The notes beneath the pieces were generated by a model. That model made no database searches, was not told the origin of the DNA, and saw nothing but the letters and a program-made list of their open reading frames with translations. A stretch of DNA of 64,000 nt from Flaviaestuariibacter flavus (GTDB lineage: Bacteria > Bacteroidota > Bacteroidia > Chitinophagales > Chitinophagaceae): NCBI RefSeq assembly GCF_004337505.1, contig NZ_SJZI01000008.1, forward strand, positions 296,767-360,766. Direction: 5' to 3'. The position numbers and the translations under genes are program-made. Below, piece after piece: positions 54,170 through 63,519 of the stretch (its first letter is position 1; each line of letters begins with the position of its first letter).

Positions 54170-56803
54170 ATGCTGGCCGGTGACCAGGCCTTTTCACAGG
54201 GAGAGGTCCGCCTGGCGGGCAGCGTCACCGACCCGGAAAGCCTCCCGCTCAGCGGCGTGTCGGTAACCGCCACCGACCCGAAATCCAAAGCCATCATCGC
54301 ATACGCGTTTTCGGGCAACGACGGACTATTCGAGCTCCGTTACCCGCCACGCCCTTCGGATTCGCTGGAGCTGACCTTTTCATTGATCGGATACGGCCCG
54401 AAATTGCTGCATCTGGCGCGCAGCGCGCAGAGCAGCCTCCGGATCGTGCTCGCGCCCAAACCGATCGAGCTGCCGGAATTCAACGTAAAGACAGGCCCGG
54501 TGGTAGCCGGCAGGGATACGATCGTATACCAGGCCGGCCAGTTCCGGCAGCTGGGCGACAAAGCCATCGGCGATGTTATTGCCCGTTTTCCGGGCATTGA
54601 AGTGCGTCCCAACGGCCAGATCTTGTACAACGGGCGCCCGATTATCAAATACTATATCGAGGGCGTGGACCTGCTCGATGACCGCTATAGCCTTGCCAAC
54701 CGCAACCTGCCGTCGGAATATGTCGACAAGGTTCAGATCCTGGAAAATCACCAGCCCATACGCGCGCTCGACAGCTTTGCCCTTTCCAACCGGGCGGCTA
54801 TCAACATCAAACTGAAAAACAATGTCCGGATGCGGCTTATCGGGCGGGCGGAACTCGGCCTGGGTGCCACGCCGCTGCTTTCCGAAGACCAGGTTGTCGC
54901 CATCCGGCTCAGGCGGAACCTCCAGTTCCTGAATGTGGCGAAGTTCAACAATACCGGCGCCGACAATTCCCAGGACCTCGCATCGCTCAATGGCAACGAG
55001 AATACCGGCTTCACCCGGAACCGGACTGCAAAGCGCGACCTGCTTGCAATTCCCAACCCGGGCACCCCGGATATCAACAAAAGCCGTTACCTGCTGAACC
55101 GCCAGTCGGTAGTTTCCGGCAATTACCTGTTCCCGCTGCGCAAAGAGGCAACCCTGCGGCTGCATGCGAGCTATGTGAACGACAGGATACGGAAAACAAT
55201 GGAACAGGCATCCGTGTATAAAACGCCGACCGCAACGATTGGTATCGACGAACGGGTTGGAATGCGCACCGATATGGAGCGCTTCGAAGCCGACCTAGCA
55301 CTGGAGAAGAACCAGAAAAAGCAATATGCCGCGCATAGTGTCCGGGTAAAACTCTGGAACGCAAAAGACGTATCGGATACCTACAACGGCGCGAGCTTCA
55401 TCGGGCAGACGCTGACGAACCCTTTCTTCGACCTCCGCTTCAGTTCCCGGCTTATCCGGGCCAATCGTAAGCTGGCGCAGGAGCTGTATTCCGTAGCAGG
55501 GTACTACCGCAACGCGCAGCGCCTCGAAGTGTTGCCGGGGCTTTATCCCGCAATTTTCAATACCGCACCCGGGTACGACGGCTTTTCACAAACGGGCATT
55601 TACGAATTGAAATATGCCGAAAGTTATTTCGCGGTCCGCGGGTTCGGTAAACGGGTGCAGAAGCAATACAAGGTCGGGGTTTCCGGCCAGCTGGCATCGG
55701 TTGGTTCCGACCTCCGGTTCCGGTACGCCGACGAATCCAAATATGCGCCCGACAGCTTCGCCAATGACCTGAATTCAGCCAACCTCTTCCTGTACCAGGA
55801 GAGCGAATGGAGCTATAAGGACGAGGTCTTTTCTGCAAAGCTGAAGCTACCCTGGGGGATCAATTTCCTGTCCTACGGCGATTCGCTGCACTCCTTCGGC
55901 GACAGCCGCAAGCGGGTCATCGTCAATCCTTTCCTTTCGGGTTCGATGAGGGTCCTAAAAAAGATGACACTCGACGGCTCGATAGCGTACAGCCAGAATT
56001 TCACCGACATCCTTTCTACCTACCGGGGATATATTTTCAACACGTATCGCAATGCAACGCGGAATAATGCCCTCGTGGACAAGCAGGATTTGCTTTCCGC
56101 AACCCTCGGACTCTCGTACAACAACCCGGTGAAGGGGCTTTCGTGGTCGGTTTCGCATACCCGGTCGCAGATCACGAGCGGCCTCATCGACCGGACCCGC
56201 TTTAACGGCCAGCTGCAGGACCGATCGGCGGAAGCGGTTCGCAACACCACCAGCAACAATAGCGTCGCGGTGTCGGTGGGCAAATACATCTGGGAGCTGA
56301 AAACCGCGACCAACATCGCGATGGATTATGGTGTCAGCTCAGCACCCCAATTCTTCGAAAACAGTATGGTCCGTTCCCGGACGAACGTCCTCAACTTCAG
56401 CGCCGGCGTTTCATCCGGCCTCAGCGAGAAGTTGTCGCTGAATTACCGGCTGGTGATATCCAGGAACCGGTCGCGCTTAGATCAGGAAAAGAACTTTTTC
56501 GAGGCCACCCAAACCCGGCACGTCGCCTCCGTCAACTATGCGCCGGTTCGCAAGCTGATCCTGCGCGTCACTTCCGAATATTATGTCATCAGCGGCACCG
56601 CGACGGAGCGGCAGCCGGCAAACTTCACGGATTTATCGCTGCGGTATTTCCTGAAAAACAAGTCGGAACTGGAGCTGAGCACCACCAATATCCTGGATAC
56701 GCGATCCTATACCTGGGCGTCTTCCTTCGAATACCTGTCGTTGTTCCGGCGCTATGAAACGCGCCCTTTCCAGGTGCTGCTGAAATACGCATTCACTTTC
56801 TAA
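54170..56803 (+). CDS. TonB-receptor-like outer-membrane beta-barrel with carboxypeptidase-like regulatory domain
   Basis: This 877-residue protein has the GLPGLI-partner architecture: CarboxypepD_reg-like domain (VRLAGSVTDPESLPLSGVSVTA, about 13-100), a plug-like part (QLGDKAIGDVIARFPGIEVRPNGQILYNGRPIIKYYIEGVDLLDDRYSLANRNLPSEYVDKVQILENHQP) and a long barrel ending LLKYAFTF. The N-terminus (MLAGDQAFSQ) is too short for a signal peptide. In-frame codons upstream read AVLILMLAGDQAFSQ without a usual start, while a neighbouring frame supplies MGCRQRFL, so a frameshift or non-standard start near 54160 is possible. Its cargo is unknown. Confidence 0.85.
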   Translation: MLAGDQAFSQGEVRLAGSVTDPESLPLSGVSVTATDPKSKAIIAYAFSGNDGLFELRYPPRPSDSLELTFSLIGYGPKLLHLARSAQSSLRIVLAPKPIELPEFNVKTGPVVAGRDTIVYQAGQFRQLGDKAIGDVIARFPGIEVRPNGQILYNGRPIIKYYIEGVDLLDDRYSLANRNLPSEYVDKVQILENHQPIRALDSFALSNRAAINIKLKNNVRMRLIGRAELGLGATPLLSEDQVVAIRLRRNLQFLNVAKFNNTGADNSQDLASLNGNENTGFTRNRTAKRDLLAIPNPGTPDINKSRYLLNRQSVVSGNYLFPLRKEATLRLHASYVNDRIRKTMEQASVYKTPTATIGIDERVGMRTDMERFEADLALEKNQKKQYAAHSVRVKLWNAKDVSDTYNGASFIGQTLTNPFFDLRFSSRLIRANRKLAQELYSVAGYYRNAQRLEVLPGLYPAIFNTAPGYDGFSQTGIYELKYAESYFAVRGFGKRVQKQYKVGVSGQLASVGSDLRFRYADESKYAPDSFANDLNSANLFLYQESEWSYKDEVFSAKLKLPWGINFLSYGDSLHSFGDSRKRVIVNPFLSGSMRVLKKMTLDGSIAYSQNFTDILSTYRGYIFNTYRNATRNNALVDKQDLLSATLGLSYNNPVKGLSWSVSHTRSQITSGLIDRTRFNGQLQDRSAEAVRNTTSNNSVAVSVGKYIWELKTATNIAMDYGVSSAPQFFENSMVRSRTNVLNFSAGVSSGLSEKLSLNYRLVISRNRSRLDQEKNFFEATQTRHVASVNYAPVRKLILRVTSEYYVISGTATERQPANFTDLSLRYFLKNKSELELSTTNILDTRSYTWASSFEYLSLFRRYETRPFQVLLKYAFTF

Positions 56804-56997
56804 CCGGCGCCGGGTGCCCGTACTTTCATTTCCGGAAGAAGTTTCGGCCGCAACCGCCGCCAGGCGACGATCGCACTTATTATTTCGGCCAGGCCACCCA
56901 CCGTAAAACAACTGCCCCCGGCTTTTCCCGATCGATGGCTCGTTGGGTACCGGAACGAAAAAGCCGTGGACTTTCATCCGCGGCTTGAACCGATTCA

Positions 56998-57049
56998 GAG
57001 GAGCCGGTTTGAAGGGCCATCCGCCGGCTGGCGGATATGAATCCAATGC
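56998..57049 (-). pseudogene. Degenerate tRNA-Met 3'-half copy
   Basis: On the minus strand, GCATTGGATTCATATCCGCC, a palindromic GGCGGA insert and a T-arm-like segment ending in GGCTCCTC follow the anticodon-arm to acceptor order of the tRNA-Met gene at 59493-59566, with many changes. It has no 5' half. Confidence 0.5.
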
Positions 57050-57088
57050 ACAAAAAGCCCTCCAATGGAGGGCTCTGTGAGGTACCGG
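57042..57088. repeat. Direct repeat 1 (tRNA-Met terminator unit)
   Basis: TCCAATG, AAAAAGCCCTCC, GGAGGGCT, TGAGGTACCGGG in order. The same order recurs at 59354-59400, and the terminator part recurs next to the intact tRNA (59463-59500). The two copies bracket the segment 57089-59353. Confidence 0.65.
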
Positions 57089-57258
57089 GAAAGAGACAAA
57101 TAGCTGACTTGCTGAGTAATCTAATTCGGCTAGCTGGGCTAAAATGAGCTTCTATTCAAATCCGATGTTACGCGGTTCGCACCTTATCCTGCATGACCTA
57201 GTGGCTGCCCGGATTTAACCTATTTAACATGGTCAAACTGCGGGTGGAGACACGAACA

Positions 57259-57501
57259 CTAGGCTCCAATACCACTTGCGAGCTGAAAACGAACAAGAAC
57301 GTGGGAGGGGTAATGATCAGCGCTGACGATTTCCAGGAAAGCAGCATCCTTGTGAACGTATTTCGATAGTGCCTGCTGGTAGTGCAGAAGAAACGTGCTT
57401 TCCTTTTCCGGTTGCGTGAGCAGCCTTTCCTCTGCAGCACTTTCTGGAACCAGCTTTATCGAGCATATGCTTGAGTTTAATTTCTCTACCCTATATTTCA
57501 T
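57259..57501 (-). CDS. Small hypothetical protein
   Basis: This 80-residue frame starts at ATG 57501 (MKYRVEKLNSSICSIKLVPE) after an AT-rich leader (AAGGTTTAAATCATTATC). It is mixed charged and hydrophobic, predicted soluble, with no signal peptide and no recognised domain. Composition is less GC-rich than the window as a whole. It lies inside the segment bracketed by tRNA-Met fragments. A frame of equal length in another register overlaps it. Confidence 0.45.
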   Translation of the reverse strand: MKYRVEKLNSSICSIKLVPESAAEERLLTQPEKESTFLLHYQQALSKYVHKDAAFLEIVSADHYPSHVLVRFQLASGIGA

Positions 57502-58068
57502 GATAATGATTTAAACCTTTTTTGTACGGCGTCTTTACAAATCTATTATTGGACAACAAGAAAAAGAGTGATCCCTGAACAAAATCTCCATACACGTTCG
57601 CGACGTCGCCAAAGCAGCCCACTTGCAAGCAATACGCGCCAAACTGATCCAGGGCGACTACAACGAACCGGCATGGCTCGTTGCTGCACTCACCGGTGTA
57701 GATAAACGCTCGCCTATTGCAGCAGTGAGGTGCCCAACCGCTTTCCGCCGCATCAGAACCTCAACAAATAGCCAAGATCCGGAGTGCACGGCAATCCGGC
57801 GAAGAATTCTGTTCGTGCCGGACGGCAAGGCACGATGATCTATGGGGCCTGTTACTGATCTGAACGGGTCGGCCTGGGTCTTTGTTACCATTGACCGTTT
57901 GAGGTTTAGCAAAGTATTGGCGCATCCTTCCGGAATAAAAGCCTACTTTCACCGTGTTATTTGAGCCTCGCATTAGTGATCGTTAATTATCCTGCTTCAA
58001 CCGCACCTTAGTTAGTCCCTTACTTCTTGCTTTCCTCAAGCTTTTTAAATTTTTAATTACACAAGAAC
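57502..58068. other. Gap with a possible decayed reading frame
   Basis: Between 57567 and 57838 one plus-strand frame reads LNKISIHVRDVAKAAHLQAI and then RAKLIQGDYNEPAWLVAALT, protein-like text with no good start (CTG, or TTG at 57623) and an Arg-rich end. I cannot identify it; it may be a gene remnant. 57960-58068 is the AT-rich leader of the RRM gene. Confidence 0.35.
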
Positions 58069-58368
58069 ATGAACATTTATGTTTCGAACCTGAGCTTCAA
58101 CCTGCAGGATCAAGATCTGGGAGATTTTTTCGCTCCTTATGGAGAGGTAACTACTGCTAAAATCATAACTGACCGCGAAACGGGCAGATCGAGAGGTTTT
58201 GGTTTCGTTGAAATGTCGGATGACGCTGCTTCCAGAAAAGCAATCGCCGAACTGAACGAAACTTCTTTTGATGGCAGAACAATCAAAGTATCGGAAGCCA
58301 AGGCGAAAGAAGACCTTCCCGCCCGCAATTTTAGCGGTGGTGGTAATTACAATAACAACCGTTATTAA
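58069..58368 (+). CDS. RNA recognition motif (RRM) protein
   Basis: This 99-residue protein has one RRM: RNP2 IYVSNL (3-8) and RNP1 RGFGFVEM (42-49), then a short Asn/Gly/Tyr-rich tail (FSGGGNYNNNRY). Small RRM proteins of this type are abundant in Bacteroidota and cyanobacteria and are often cold-induced RNA chaperones. The long AT-rich leader (over 100 bases) would suit post-transcriptional or cold control. A strong terminator follows at 58384. Confidence 0.92.
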   Translation: MNIYVSNLSFNLQDQDLGDFFAPYGEVTTAKIITDRETGRSRGFGFVEMSDDAASRKAIAELNETSFDGRTIKVSEAKAKEDLPARNFSGGGNYNNNRY

Positions 58369-58383
58369 TAGCATCCTACGTCA

Positions 58384-58417
58384 AAAAAAGCCCGGTTCTG
58401 AACCGGGCTTTTTTTAT
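58384..58417 (+). terminator. Terminator after the RRM gene
   Basis: AAAAAAA, stem agcccggttc/gaaccgggct, TTTTTTT. Confidence 0.92.
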
Positions 58418-58701
58418 CCCCAGCCGGCAAAGAACGCCAAATACCCTCTCGGAAGGTGGCGCACAAGTATCGCAAAGAGAATACCCTGCAGCTCTTAATA
58501 CGCAACCGGAATACTCTGGAGATTTACACTATTGCCATCATTGGCTAACAACTCTGTATGCGGGTTTTCCGGCCCGTTAATTTCACCAGGATCTTCCTCC
58601 GGTCTTATGTTCCTGGATTCGGGCACACTGATAAGTTTGCTGCGAGGCGTTCACGGAAGATACCTGAAGCAATGACGCAAGTGTAAAATTCAACCCAAGC
58701 A
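58418..58701. other. Intergenic region, nothing recognised
   Basis: These 284 bases between the RRM terminator and the DUF4265 gene show no gene or clear structure. Confidence 0.5.
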
Positions 58702-59160
58702 ATGGATACAACCCGCCCAAATATTAAAATAGATCTCCCTTATGACGACAACGGTACGCTGAAGTTTGAAAAAGTGCTGTGCCGGCAAATAGGCGATTAC
58801 TATTTGGTTTCCTCAATTCCTGTCTTTTCCCATGCGGTGGCCTTTGGAGATATTATTTTATTGGAGGAAGACAATGGAAATTTCTACGTCGATACAGTTA
58901 TCTCCCCGTCGGGCCATAGTGTGATACAAATCATGATAAAAAAACCTGAATTCATTGAGAGACTTCTCAAAACCCTTCATGATTTGGGCATCGAAGCCAC
59001 CACGCGCGCCGATGAATTTTACCTGGTCGTTGACGTGCCGCCTCGGATAAATTTCTCCCAATTGACAAGCATTTTAGAAAAATACGCCGAGAGTGAAATA
59101 ATTGCATATCGGCATGCGTGTATCAGCGATGAACATTTACTTTCTTGTACAAAGAATTAA
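58702..59160 (+). CDS. DUF4265 family protein
   Basis: This 152-residue soluble protein has DUF4265 text: FEKVLCRQIGDYYLVSSIPVFSHAVAFGDIILLEEDNGNFYVDTVISPSGHSVIQIM. The C-terminal half (FIERLLKTLHDLGIEATTRADEFYLVVDVPP) suggests an ACT-like ferredoxin fold. The family is scattered in bacteria, often in accessory regions, and its function is unknown; some members neighbour polymorphic-toxin genes. The gene is markedly more AT-rich than the window average and stands alone between tRNA-Met fragments, which suggests transfer. Confidence 0.8.
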   Translation: MDTTRPNIKIDLPYDDNGTLKFEKVLCRQIGDYYLVSSIPVFSHAVAFGDIILLEEDNGNFYVDTVISPSGHSVIQIMIKKPEFIERLLKTLHDLGIEATTRADEFYLVVDVPPRINFSQLTSILEKYAESEIIAYRHACISDEHLLSCTKN

Positions 59161-59353
59161 TATTTTTTGGCCGCTAATTCGTAATAGTCACTTTGAAAAG
59201 GCCACCAATATCTATTTCCAAATCACATCCGGTTCGACAACAATCTGAACCGAAAGTAAAAGAGGCTTTTGCCGAAAAACCGGAAGCCTCCCTAAGGCAC
59301 CGGGCAACAGATTGTGATCGCCCACTGCCTGTATGCAGATATCCCTCAGAGAC

Positions 59354-59400
59354 TCCAATGTAAAAAGCCCTCTGGTGGGAGGGCTTTTGAGGTACCGAGG
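59354..59400. repeat. Direct repeat 2 (tRNA-Met terminator unit)
   Basis: TCCAATG, AAAAAGCCCTCT, GGGAGGGCTTTTGA, GGTACCGAGG in the same order as at 57042-57088. The hairpin agccctc/gagggct inside is a terminator on the minus strand. Confidence 0.7.
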
Positions 59401-59448
59401 AGCAGACTTGAACTGCCGTCCGCCAACCGGCGGATATAAATCCGATGC
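59393..59448 (-). pseudogene. tRNA-Met 3'-half copy
   Basis: On the minus strand GCATCGGATTTATATCCGCC is followed by GGTTGGCGGA and then GGCAGTTCAAGTCTGCTCCT and CGGTA. From the T arm to the discriminator it is identical to the tRNA gene next to it (59493-59566). The anticodon loop is altered and a TCCGCC/GGCGGA palindrome replaces the variable region. The 5' half is missing. Confidence 0.75.
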
Positions 59449-59462
59449 ATTTGTGTAAAAGT

Positions 59463-59488
59463 AAAAGCCCTCCGATTGGAGGGCTTTT
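59463..59488 (-). terminator. Terminator of tRNA-Met
   Basis: On the minus strand AAAAGCCCTCC / GGAGGGCTTTT follow the tRNA 3' end by five bases. Confidence 0.82.
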
Positions 59489-59492
59489 GAGG

Positions 59493-59566
59493 TACCGAGG
59501 AGCAGACTTGAACTGCCGACCTTCGGGTTATGAATCCGATGCTCTAACCAGCTGAGCTACCTCGGC
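59493..59566 (-). tRNA. tRNA-Met (anticodon CAT)
   Basis: The 74-nt cloverleaf reads acceptor GCCGAGG with CCTCGGT (first pair G-U), D arm GCTCAGCTGGTTAGAGC, anticodon arm TCGGA-TTCATAA-CCCGA with CAT in the loop (the last stem pair is A-C), variable AGGTC, T arm GGCAG-TTCAAGT-CTGCT, discriminator A. CCA is not encoded. The lack of initiator features suggests elongator Met; an Ile tRNA with lysidine cannot be fully excluded. Confidence 0.9.
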
Positions 59567-59732
59567 CACTGTCCGCCGAAGCTGTAGCCGTGGCGGAAAG
59601 GGCTGCAAAAATAAGGAGATCAGCCGTTTCCAACAAACTAAATTCGAAAATCGGGAACCAGGGTGCAAACAAACCCGAGATGACGCCGCCCCCAATCTAT
59701 TCCGGAATACGTACCTTTTCGCAAACCCTGGT

Positions 59733-61487
59733 ATGCGCATCACGGCCTTCCTGTTATTGCTGCTTCTTTCCTGCACTGCCGCCGCGCAGCAGGCACTCTC
59801 CTACCGCGTCCGGCCCGACACGGCGCGGCGTACCATCAGTGTGGAGCTCACCGTGCCCGGCGCGCCTAAAGTCTTCAACCTTGCCACCTACGCACATCCC
59901 GAATACGACGACCGCTACTGGCGCTACGTGCGTGACCTCAGGGTTGCCGGGGGCAGCGTTCGTCGCCTCGACAGCGCGCTCTGGGAGCTCACCCATGAAG
60001 CCGGCGGCGACGCCCTGGTCAGCTACCGCGTGGAGCTGCCACAGGCCGAAGGCTTTCGTCCCGCATGGCGCCCGCACCTGGGCAGCGGCATCGCCCTGCT
60101 GGGCGGGCCGCACACCTTTCTATACCCCACCTCGATGCCGGCAGTGGCAGCACAGGTGCAGCTGGAGCTGCCCCAGGACTGGAAAGTGTTTACGGCGCTG
60201 GCGCCGGCCGCGCCGGGCCTTTGGCGCGCCCCGGATATCGCCGCGCTCATGGATGCGCCGATCCTCGCCGGCCGCATCGCCTCCCGCAGTCATTTCAGCA
60301 AAGAGGCGACGCACGTGGTCGCTTATGCCTCACCGGCCGCCGACGGCCTGCTGGATAAACTCAACAGCGAGCTCATGGCGCTGACCGCGCAAGCCGGGCG
60401 ACTCTTCGGCGGATACCCCTTCAAATCCTACTGGTTTCTGCTGCAGGACAGCGCCTATGGCGGCCTCGAACACGCCGCCAGCGCCACGCTCGGCGTTTCT
60501 TCCGAACGACTGCGCGGGCCGGAGCGGGCGGAGGAACTGGCGGATATCGCACACGAATACCTGCATGCCTGGAACCTGGTGGCCCTGCGCCCCAGGGGCT
60601 ATGGCGGGCTGACCTGGAAAAACCCCGGCCCGGCCCGCGAGCTCTGGTTCAGTGAAGGCTTCACGCTTTATTATGCCGACCTGCTGCTGCGCCGCGCGCG
60701 GCTGCCGGTTCCGGACAGCACCCGCGCCGATCACCTGCGCACGGTGCTCGAATCCTACTACCGCAACAGCGGCAACTACCTGCTGCCGCCCGCCCGCGTG
60801 AGCCTCGACGCCAACGCCACCCCGGGCAGCCTCGGCGACTACAACGCCAGCCCCCACCAGCAGGGTGAGGTCATTGCCACATTGCTCGACTGGAAGATCC
60901 GCACGGCCACCGGCGGCGCAAAAACGCTCGACGATTTCATGCGGCGCTTTTACCAGCGCTTCCGCGGTAAAGGGTTTACGGAGACAGATATAAAGCAGGA
61001 GGCCGAAAGCATTTGCAGCTGCCGGCTCGATACGTTCTTTAACAGCTATATCAACAACGGCCGGGAGCTGCCGGTTGCCGCAACACTGGCCGAAATGGGC
61101 TGGCGCTTCACCCGCCAAACCGTCACCGACAGCAGCGGCGGCGCGCCCCGCCCCGACGTCGATATGTATGCCTGGCAGGACGCGCAGGGGATCCTGCGGC
61201 TCGGGCTCAACCGCCCTAACAGCTGCTGGACAGCCGCGGGTCTGCACACCGGCGACGAGTTGCTCGCCTTTGGCGGCAGTACGGTGACCACCCAGCGCGA
61301 ATTCTTCAGCCGGATGCGGGCAATCAAGGTGGGCGAGATCGTAGGTGTTGCCATAAGAAAAGACGGGCGCCCTCAATTGGTACGGGCAACCGTCACGCCC
61401 GCCACACGGGAGGCGGTGCACCTTACGCCCGCAAGGACCTCGCCGGCAATGGAACGCCTGCGCGCAGCCTGGCTGCGGGGTCAATAG
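59733..61487 (+). CDS. M61 family metallopeptidase (glycyl aminopeptidase type) with PDZ domain
   Basis: This 584-residue exported peptidase has a signal peptide (MRITAFLLLLLLSCTAAAQ). An N-terminal beta domain (about 20-170) precedes the catalytic domain with HEYLHAWN (zinc ligands His274 and His278, catalytic Glu275) and ELWFSEGFTLYYADL (third ligand Glu308). A PDZ domain lies near 490-560 (GILRLGLNRPNSCWTAAGLHTGDELLAFGG). M61 enzymes remove N-terminal Gly or Ala. Its stop overlaps the convergent downstream gene by 7 bp. Confidence 0.92.
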   Translation: MRITAFLLLLLLSCTAAAQQALSYRVRPDTARRTISVELTVPGAPKVFNLATYAHPEYDDRYWRYVRDLRVAGGSVRRLDSALWELTHEAGGDALVSYRVELPQAEGFRPAWRPHLGSGIALLGGPHTFLYPTSMPAVAAQVQLELPQDWKVFTALAPAAPGLWRAPDIAALMDAPILAGRIASRSHFSKEATHVVAYASPAADGLLDKLNSELMALTAQAGRLFGGYPFKSYWFLLQDSAYGGLEHAASATLGVSSERLRGPERAEELADIAHEYLHAWNLVALRPRGYGGLTWKNPGPARELWFSEGFTLYYADLLLRRARLPVPDSTRADHLRTVLESYYRNSGNYLLPPARVSLDANATPGSLGDYNASPHQQGEVIATLLDWKIRTATGGAKTLDDFMRRFYQRFRGKGFTETDIKQEAESICSCRLDTFFNSYINNGRELPVAATLAEMGWRFTRQTVTDSSGGAPRPDVDMYAWQDAQGILRLGLNRPNSCWTAAGLHTGDELLAFGGSTVTTQREFFSRMRAIKVGEIVGVAIRKDGRPQLVRATVTPATREAVHLTPARTSPAMERLRAAWLRGQ

Positions 61488-62263
61488 CGGGTGCTGCCCG
61501 GCTGCTTTTCCACGAGGTATTTCCAGTATCGCCGAGGCATATGCTGCACCTGCAGGCGCGTGTTCTTCCGGGCGGCGATGTTGACGCTTTTGAAATACTG
61601 CCTCCACAGCTGCTGGTAAAAAGCTTCTTCCGGGTCATAAACGGCAGCCACTTCGCGCCCGCCGGCGGCGGCTTCCGAAAATTGTATTTCTACGGCATGC
61701 GTCCGCGCGCCGTCGTAATGAATGCCGTAGCGCCGTCGCCCGTCGTAGATCAGCCAGCGCTGGTCGGCATAGCGGGTGGTAAAATGCTTGGCGATGAGCG
61801 GCAACACGTCGTGGTCCGGCTCAATCAGCGCATAATAAAGACCATCGGCCGTTTTCTGGAAACGCACGAAGGCCTCCATCCGGTGCTGCTCCTTCCATAC
61901 CTTGCGCGCCACTTGCGACACGGCTAGTACATCCGGGTGACTGAAGTCCTGCTCTACCGATCCTTCACTGGCAAACACGTAGCTCACATAGCGCAGCAGC
62001 GTGTTTGCGATTCCCGCCTCGTCGGCAAGGAAACATTGGGATACCGCCTGCAGTCCTTCGGCACTCAGCTTGCGCTGCAGGCCGCGCCACACGCGCTGTG
62101 CATGCGCTTCAAGAAAACGCGCTTCGTGCACGGCACCAAAAATAGTTCCCTGGAAGCGGTCTCTTCGGCACAGGTCTACGGCTTCGAATTTATAATCGAA
62201 TACATCGAACACCGCGCAGAGCCAGCCTTCGAAACTGCCGTCATACAACACCGTCTGCAGCAT
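61481..62263 (-). CDS. Putative DNA metabolism protein (TIGR03915/DUF4130 family)
   Basis: This 260-residue protein has the family pattern: LYDGSFEGWLCAVFDVFDYKFEAVDL, FLADEAGIANTLLRYVSYVF, HPDVLAVSQVARKVWKEQHRMEAFVRFQKTADGLYYALIEPDHDVLPLIAKHFTTRYADQRWLIYD, GRRRYGIHYDG. The family is almost always encoded with the radical SAM gene found just upstream here (1-bp overlap) and is thought to act in DNA repair or modification; some versions are fused to a uracil-DNA glycosylase domain. No UDG domain is present in this copy. The exact reaction is unknown. Confidence 0.88.
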   Translation of the reverse strand: MLQTVLYDGSFEGWLCAVFDVFDYKFEAVDLCRRDRFQGTIFGAVHEARFLEAHAQRVWRGLQRKLSAEGLQAVSQCFLADEAGIANTLLRYVSYVFASEGSVEQDFSHPDVLAVSQVARKVWKEQHRMEAFVRFQKTADGLYYALIEPDHDVLPLIAKHFTTRYADQRWLIYDGRRRYGIHYDGARTHAVEIQFSEAAAGGREVAAVYDPEEAFYQQLWRQYFKSVNIAARKNTRLQVQHMPRRYWKYLVEKQPGSTRY

Positions 62264-63519
62264 CAGAAAATGGTAAGCTGCGGTGAATGATTGGCGGCGT
62301 ACTTGCTTTGCGCGCCGCCCAGGATAAAGCCGCGGATCTGGTCGGCGCTGTACTCCCGGCGCAGGCCGGTGCCGGTACGCAGGTCGAGGAAGTAGCGGGC
62401 CCGGTTGGCAGCGATATTGAAGCGTTTCAGGTGCTCCCAGGTCAGCTTTGTGAAGCGCCGTGCCTCCCAGATCTTTTGCGCCGACTTCAGCCCGATGCCC
62501 GGCACCCGCCGGATGAGATCGAGGTCGGCGGTGTTCACATCAACCGGGAACTGGTGCAGGTTGCGCAGCGCCCATTGCAGCTTCGGATCCACCTGCAGAT
62601 CCAGGAAAGGCTCGTCGGCTGCAAGGATCTCGTTCACGTCAAAACCATAATAACGCAGCAGCCAGTCGGCCTGGTAAAGCCGGTTTTCGCGGATCATGGG
62701 TACCGGCGTTCCGATGGAGGGCAGGCGGCTGTCGTCGCTGATGGGCACATAGCCGGAGTAATAAACGCGCTTCAGCTTCATGTTCTTGTAAAAAGAATCG
62801 GAGAGCAGTAGAATCTGGCGGTCGCTTTCCGGCGATGCGCCCACCACGAGTTGCGTGCTCTGGCCTGCCGGCGCGAAGAGCGGCGCTTTCACCAGCGTTT
62901 TCCGCTCGTCGCGGTTGGCGATGATGCGCTCCTTCAGCACGGTCATGGGCCGGATGACATCTTCGGTCTTCTTTTCGGGCGCCAGCAATTGCAAACTTTG
63001 CTCGGTCGGAAGCTCCATGTTCACACTGAGGCGGTCGGCATAAAGCCCCGCGGCCTCGAGCAGCTCCGGGCTCGCGCCGGGGATGGCCTTCAGGTGGATA
63101 TAGCCGTTAAAGCGGTGCTCCGTGCGCAGCTTCTTCGCAATCTGCACCAGGCGCTCCATCGTATAGTCGGGATCCCTGAAGATCCCCGAGCTCAGGAAAA
63201 GCCCCTCGATATAATTCCGGCGGTAAAAATTGATGGTCAGGTCCACCACCTCCTCCACGGTGAAGGCGGCGCGCTTCACATCGTTGCTGCGGCGGCTCAC
63301 GCAATAAGCGCAGTCGAAAATGCAGTGGTTGGTGAGCAGGATCTTCAGCAGCGACACGCAGCGTCCGTCTTCGGTGTACGCATGGCAGATGCCCATGCCT
63401 TCGGCATTGCCCAATCCCTTTTCCTTGTTCTTCCGGCTGCTCCCGCTGGAGCTGCAGGAAACATCATATTTTGCCGCATCCGCGAGGATCGAAAGCTTCT
63501 CCAACACCCGTTCGTTCAT
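62263..63519 (-). CDS. Putative DNA modification/repair radical SAM protein (TIGR03916 family)
   Basis: This 418-residue radical SAM enzyme has the cluster motif CIFDCAYC (Cys66, Cys70, Cys73) after LKILLTNH. Further motifs are GLFLSSGIFRDPDYTMERL, GYIHLKAIPGASPELLEAAGLYADRLSVNMELP and a C-terminal helix-hairpin-helix (VDVNTADLDLIRRVPGIGLKSAQKIWEAR, about 318-346) that suggests DNA binding. It is translationally coupled to the TIGR03915 gene. The pair is widespread, but its substrate is unresolved. Confidence 0.92.
   Translation of the reverse strand: MNERVLEKLSILADAAKYDVSCSSSGSSRKNKEKGLGNAEGMGICHAYTEDGRCVSLLKILLTNHCIFDCAYCVSRRSNDVKRAAFTVEEVVDLTINFYRRNYIEGLFLSSGIFRDPDYTMERLVQIAKKLRTEHRFNGYIHLKAIPGASPELLEAAGLYADRLSVNMELPTEQSLQLLAPEKKTEDVIRPMTVLKERIIANRDERKTLVKAPLFAPAGQSTQLVVGASPESDRQILLLSDSFYKNMKLKRVYYSGYVPISDDSRLPSIGTPVPMIRENRLYQADWLLRYYGFDVNEILAADEPFLDLQVDPKLQWALRNLHQFPVDVNTADLDLIRRVPGIGLKSAQKIWEARRFTKLTWEHLKRFNIAANRARYFLDLRTGTGLRREYSADQIRGFILGGAQSKYAANHSPQLTIF

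Follow-up and report, generated by a model that had tools for sequence, protein, structure and literature searches.

The Ssn/NTS system of Neisseria pairs a small stand-alone single-strand GIY-YIG nuclease with short palindromic hairpin repeats. A cyanobacterial transfer RNA (tRNA) gene, that for tRNA-fMet, carries a group I intron with a homing endonuclease, and the REP/RAYT and Rickettsia palindromic elements are short dispersed palindromes, some of which lie in RNA genes. In phage T6, the free-standing GIY-YIG homing endonuclease SegB lies near tRNA genes of many different isotypes, and tandem amplification of a segment that contains tRNA-Tyr depends on it; in the view of its authors, recombination in which the tRNA gene takes part follows the cleavage (PMC13096335). 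The locus compared here with these systems surrounds the tRNA-Met gene of Flaviaestuariibacter flavus, at positions 56998–59566 of the window, i.e. the whole stretch of 64,000 nucleotides that was analyzed (C8:296767–360766 of a 3.96-Mb draft genome, G000). It contains truncated copies of the tRNA-Met gene in which one part is swapped for a palindromic hairpin, and these units are probably nuclease-less remnants of a minimal tRNA-parasitic GIY-YIG/hairpin element of the Bacteroidota, rather than traces of an integrase-borne island.

As in the Ssn/NTS system, a small stand-alone GIY-YIG nuclease occurs with short palindromic repeats; here the hairpin lies inside a tRNA-gene fragment beside an intact gene, and both hairpins and arms vary by tRNA. 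The tRNA-fMet intron likewise belongs to a system that homes to a tRNA-Met gene at its anticodon loop, but the units described here hold no intron, the tRNA remaining intact with a truncated copy left beside it. With the REP/RAYT and Rickettsia elements the units share scattered short palindromes, part of which lie within RNA genes, whereas the palindrome here accompanies a GIY-YIG gene and tRNA fragments. SegB shares the co-location of a GIY-YIG nuclease with tRNA genes and a cleavage thought to start tandem amplification, and the word hairpin is absent from the main text of the paper describing it (PMC13096335). The genes in that case are those of phages, whereas the present ones lie on genome contigs of Bacteroidota. 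Stand-alone GIY-YIG nucleases with target repeats, or near tRNA genes as in SegB, are known already; what appears to be new is the hairpin-swapped tRNA fragment with a GIY-YIG gene. No account of such fragments in bacterial chromosomes was found in open-licence literature searched by words, and the available parts of PMC9897764 and PMC1564403 do not describe them.

ARAGORN called a single tRNA over the whole window, the gene for tRNA-Met(CAT) on the minus strand. Read along this strand from 59566, the intact gene is followed by a terminator, half copy A, a second terminator, a 2.26-kb segment, remnant C and half copy B:

59491–59566, minus strand: intact tRNA-Met gene, anticodon CAT (ARAGORN)
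59463–59488, minus strand: terminator-like inverted repeat behind the intact tRNA-Met (repeat comparison)
59391–59449, minus strand: half copy A of tRNA-Met, with 5' anticodon-stem strand and anticodon loop, hairpin, T arm and acceptor strand
59419–59434, no strand assigned: palindrome TCCGCC-AACC-GGCGGA in half copy A (pattern match; single-strand DNA fold)
59363–59388, minus strand: second terminator copy, behind half copy A (repeat comparison)
57098–59362, no strand assigned: AT-rich segment between half copy A and the third unit, GC content 0.456
57052–57097, minus strand: remnant C, a decayed acceptor tail with a third terminator copy (repeat family D1)
56998–57050, minus strand: half copy B of tRNA-Met, with hairpin and decayed T arm (repeat family D3)
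57020–57035, no strand assigned: palindrome TCCGCC-GGCT-GGCGGA in half copy B (pattern match; single-strand DNA fold)

The T arm and acceptor strand of half copy A are identical to those of the intact tRNA-Met, and the 3'-half copy and second terminator described in the initial annotation were thus both recovered. So was the decayed third copy 2.3 kb away, although this unit (56998–57097) consists of two pieces, remnant C and the separate half copy B. The feature overlooked in that annotation is the palindrome TCCGCC-N4-GGCGGA. In half copies A and B it stands where the intact gene, which lacks it, has the 3' strand of the anticodon stem and the variable loop; both copies are hairpin-swapped fragments of the neighboring tRNA and lie on its strand. 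A pattern built from the two half copies (palindrome plus TATNAATCC) had two matches in the window, whereas 100 dinucleotide-preserving shuffles gave none at up to three mismatches. Folded as single-stranded DNA, half copy A forms the hairpin and the T arm (−10.1 kcal/mol, z −2.3); the fold of half copy B is weaker (z −1.2).

Between tRNA and fragment, no GIY-YIG gene is found in the window. A full Met unit is present on contig C50 of the same genome (tRNA at 151355–151427, palindrome at 152029–152044, and a GIY-YIG gene), and the window copy was classed as a nuclease-less derivative because the gene missing here is present at this other tRNA-Met. The genome also holds a tRNA-Asp unit with a nuclease gene on C8 and an array of 351-bp units at tRNA-Val(TAC), each with a GIY-YIG gene, a hairpin-swapped tRNA-Val fragment and a terminator. 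The array runs into two contig ends, C43:112134–113188 (L184) and C2:497261–499350 (L183), with proteins that are 100% identical, and is perhaps one array split by assembly.

GTDB contigs were scanned with the palindrome pattern, which returned at least 118 loci; tallies by phylum refer to the 118 loci listed, and counts of spacing and T-stem letters to the first 80 of them. A relaxed pattern was present in 5 of 58 genomes and TCATATCCGCC-N4-GGCGGA in 12 of the 396 genomes of the order, the own genome included in both counts, and a reversed control pattern gave no matches in the latter. Within 700 bp of the palindrome, a tRNA-Met was found at 65 of the listed loci, a GIY-YIG open reading frame (ORF) at 54, either at 73 and both at 46, and all 93 matches near a tRNA-Met lie on the tRNA strand. 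The positive loci are concentrated in the Bacteroidota (69 of 85), with all three from Fidelibacterota and LCP-89 and one of two without an assigned phylum; none of the 28 loci in other phyla is positive, and the matches there look like chance. A search for carriage by phages, plasmids or viruses gave two weak phage records and one weak plasmid record for one Met-type protein, and the pattern in three viral contigs.

The 68 near matches in the first 80 loci divide into 37 downstream and 31 upstream of an intact tRNA-Met, or 32 and 22 when tallied by locus, with six matches contributed by L094 alone. Among those displayed, upstream matches are mostly 5'-half copies and downstream matches 3'-half copies. 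The downstream matches are of two kinds. For the 21 lying 279–420 bp from the tRNA, a GIY-YIG ORF is found within 66 bp in 20, whereas for 13 of the 16 lying at 18–198 bp the locus has no such ORF, and the window belongs to the latter kind. A full Met-type unit consists of an intact tRNA-Met, a GIY-YIG gene of ~82 amino acids beside it, and a fragment whose T stem tracks that of its neighbor and whose palindrome follows straight after the anticodon; across the Bacteroidota, the palindrome often occurs with such a gene filling a gap of ~300 bp between tRNA and half copy. Tandem Met arrays (L162 and L133) and tandem half copies also occur. In Sphingobacterium paludis (L096:1183–2160), two hairpin 5'-half copies accompany three tandem intact tRNA-Met genes and a GIY-YIG frame broken by a stop, and in one Met-type GIY-YIG unit (L321, G042:C10) the palindrome sits in the D arm rather than the anticodon arm. 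The compact same-strand order, with the ORF ending 0–66 bp before the fragment in 20 of the 21 widely spaced units, would also suit a function at the level of RNA, in which a single transcript would comprise the tRNA, the GIY-YIG message and the hairpin fragment, its tRNA-like 3' end stabilizing or regulating the message. We regard this as unlikely, given the terminator between tRNA and ORF in many of the units displayed, and it would leave the upstream copies unexplained.

The same spacing data bear on the proposal of the initial annotation, a classic tRNA-targeted genomic island that had lost its integrase. Direct repeats of a tRNA 3' end do flank an AT-rich segment, the copies do resemble an insertion footprint at a tRNA gene, and the statement that no integrase is left agrees with our searches, in which none was matched among six ORFs of the segment compared with Pfam and four compared with PHROGs, some short ORFs being unscanned. 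An integrase origin is nonetheless unsupported. The repeats do not reproduce the tRNA 3' end throughout: copy A matches it exactly in T arm and acceptor strand, but both half copies bear a palindrome that the intact tRNA lacks, which contradicts the island reading as far as the repeats are concerned. Because the copies contain the palindrome, relatives carry a GIY-YIG gene at related sites, and matches lie on both sides of the tRNA (the upstream ones making up 31 of 68), the footprint is not integrase-like, and such an island is very unlikely to account for the window.

Orthologous sites with and without the unit were compared within the family. The M61 peptidase gene next to the window locus offered no empty site, as synteny around it is not conserved in the genus (best relative 29% identity); the junction of tRNA-Met and era was therefore used instead of the window site itself. 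Of 120 era places in the family, 90 regions were read, and 51 of these have a tRNA-Met upstream of era on the same strand. The gap between the two is 42–226 bp in 40 junctions (10 inspected directly, the rest judged by gap length and the TCCGCC pattern) and longer in 11. A hairpin half copy was found at four of the 51 (G171, G193, G268 and G395), three with a GIY-YIG gene and one as the hairpin copy alone, and in G171 and G193 a second copy of the terminator is present. Orthologous sites are thus filled in a minority of the genomes, and tandem arrays and nuclease-less forms exist; a gene present at some orthologous sites only, here with the hairpin copy at three of 51, is a trait of homing endonucleases. 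Together with the 12 of 396 genomes bearing the strict palindrome, the four filled junctions also show that the arrangement is not common to all relatives; its presence in every one of them, with the same genes, is what the initial annotation would have taken as a sign of old tandem duplication.

Plain tandem duplication and decay of tRNA-Met, with no mobile agent, agrees with the occurrence of tandem half copies, with the tandem intact tRNA-Met genes lacking any hairpin copy in G340 and G217, and with the close match of fragments to their neighbors. In the 40 of 47 loci in which T-stem letters could be read (L074 and L088 being from one genome), fragment and neighboring tRNA agree in 33, compared with 4.7% of cross pairs, and the observed sum exceeded that of all 10,000 permutations. 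Plain duplication is contradicted by the recurrence of one palindrome at a fixed position across many genera and by the GIY-YIG gene between tRNA and fragment, and it is hardly credible as the whole explanation. Because the T-stem letters track the neighboring tRNA while the palindrome stays constant, the fragment must be made, or kept uniform, locally.

The Met-type proteins were aligned in 30 rows chosen from 48, with broken, short and near-duplicate rows excluded, and among these chosen rows Y5, Y16, G18, R26, H30, N31 and E63 are invariant. All 30 match PF01541 and have a single GIY-YIG domain, as in the Ssn family. The nearest solved structures to one Met-type protein are two UPF0213 entries in the PDB, 1ywl (E 1.5e-5) and 1zg2 (2.2e-4), which are labelled hypothetical proteins and given no function.

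Units of the same kind are found at other tRNAs. Lower-scoring GIY-YIG loci from the search with the Met-type profile have a tRNA within about 1.5 kb in 17 of 18 cases, a count that includes two units of one array (L312 and L324) and one locus of the own genome (L328). A Val-type query had matches in 33 of 61 genomes of the phylum. In this phylum sample, ARAGORN found a tRNA on either strand within about 1.5 kb at 22 of the 30 listed loci and at one of 20 control M61-gene loci, which is the window itself. A hairpin tRNA fragment was visible by eye in 13 of the 17 sample loci displayed (imperfect in L356 and L357, absent in L351 and L358, and outside the stretch displayed in L339 and L345), the tRNAs including those for Val, Ala, Asp, Gly, Lys and Asn. 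An automatic hairpin finder gave 73 of 98 GIY-YIG loci, and this count was left unused because several of the hairpins are terminators. In the fragments displayed from the lower-scoring loci, the hairpins, most perfect and some imperfect, occupy the anticodon arm (Ala, Arg, Val), the D arm (Leu, Arg, Pro) or the T arm (Leu, Glu). T-arm versions are seen in L319 and L329, where a CCCTGCCTG..CAGGCAGGG hairpin extends the T arm of tRNA-Leu and tRNA-Glu fragments. L318 (G380) has tandem GIY-YIG units at tRNA-Pro with a CCCCGCC..GGCGGGG-type hairpin in the D arm, and some of these altered copies are called as tRNA-Pro by ARAGORN.

A tree of 77 GIY-YIG proteins, built on few columns and with 43 of 74 inner branches open, required 25 changes of tRNA identity, compared with at least 35 in 200 shuffles. 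The palindrome was the main route by which the Met rows were found, so the link between palindrome and GIY-YIG gene is inflated for Met; leaving these rows out avoids the inflation, and the 39 non-Met rows required 23 changes, compared with at least 26 in the shuffles. With or without the Met rows, tRNA identity follows the tree better than in any shuffle. The chances are about even that these are phylum-wide minimal mobile elements, each a GIY-YIG gene with a hairpin-swapped fragment, which diversified over many tRNA isoacceptors by cutting at the arms, possibly in folded single-stranded DNA, with repair duplicating a tRNA half so that the essential tRNA survives.

GIY-YIG genes with repeats and no tRNA provide a further comparison. 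For three more small GIY-YIG genes of the own genome, the stretches read contain no tRNA. Inverted GTCAT-type repeats of the GTCATCCTGAGCGTAGCGAAGGATC or GTCATTGCGAGCGCAGCGAAGC type flank C50:116282 (L187) and C44:76542 (L188) on both sides, and the third gene, C42:3002, has upstream repeats ending in AGGATGACA; repeats of the GTCATTTCGA type surround the GIY-YIG gene of L358. Through these genes, the units at tRNAs are linked to nucleases that go with dispersed hairpin repeats, as in the Ssn family. The GTCAT-type repeats of the two genes and those of L358, together with the Pfam domain that all 30 Met-type proteins share with Ssn, would fit a nuclease/target pair serving the host as Ssn/NTS does in Neisseria, in which the hairpins are the targets, tRNA genes are tolerated harbors, and DNA uptake or recombination is tuned. 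Such a pair is possible, though we lean away from it, as patchy orthologous sites, tandem arrays and nuclease-less scars look selfish.

Under the preferred reading of a tRNA-parasitic element, it is the GIY-YIG enzyme that would do the cutting and cause the movement. It would cut DNA at a tRNA arm or hairpin, perhaps as a single strand, and repair would then duplicate the neighboring tRNA half, often with its terminator or promoter, the truncated copy being the one that receives the hairpin. SegB provides a parallel for such a course. Since the cell depends on the tRNA, the model lets survive only those events that leave one gene intact, and an intact copy is accordingly expected at every site. 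As for the window, its units may have lost the enzyme gene or never received it, the enzyme of the C50 unit may have acted on them in trans, and the 2.26-kb segment would have become caught between two units.

Several observations weigh against this reading. The palindrome is also found outside tRNA fragments, and 16 of the listed Bacteroidota loci have neither tRNA-Met nor GIY-YIG gene within 700 bp, several of them being tRNA-like by eye or lying at stretch edges. In the phylum sample, eight of 30 loci have no tRNA called by ARAGORN. The terminator is not repeated at the filled junctions of G268 and G395, and the other seven of the 11 long tRNA-Met/era gaps contain other sequence. The finding of a Met-type GIY-YIG match of at least 110 bits in 10 of 13 palindrome-positive genomes and in one of 20 genomes free of the strict pattern speaks for the element, but the comparison is not independent because six of the 10 positives gave rows of the profile; the palindrome-positive G030, G171 and G362 have no 110-bit match, and the pattern-free G024 has one, at a truncated locus (L307). 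Agreement in the T stem could stem from gene conversion after transfer. A profile search for a relic of a GIY-YIG gene in 55000–62000 gave noise only (best E 3.5).

The segment between the units is AT-richer, as the initial annotation had stated: its GC content of 0.456 compares with 0.584 for the window, and none of 247 windows of the same size is equally low. The genes in it had been described as orphans, which holds in part only, as two of them have known domains:

58069–58368, plus strand: gene for a small RRM RNA-binding protein (PF00076, 1.3e-22; NF058537, 2.1e-36)
58702–59160, plus strand: DUF4265-domain gene (PF14085, 6e-20)

The DUF4265 gene is present in eight of 60 genomes of the family, the own genome included. 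Elsewhere in the window, at 61481–63519 on the minus strand, a radical SAM protein with a helix-hairpin-helix motif adjoins a DUF4130 protein, a pair that is common in bacteria.

Repeated tRNA 3' ends do not by themselves prove an integrase. If the proposed element is real, it would show what the small, at present unassigned GIY-YIG proteins target and what they do, and it would supply ready enzyme/hairpin pairs, arranged by tRNA, for the study of how GIY-YIG enzymes choose DNA hairpins. For the Bacteroidota, one agent would then explain both the partial tRNA copies and the recurrent palindromes in many genomes.

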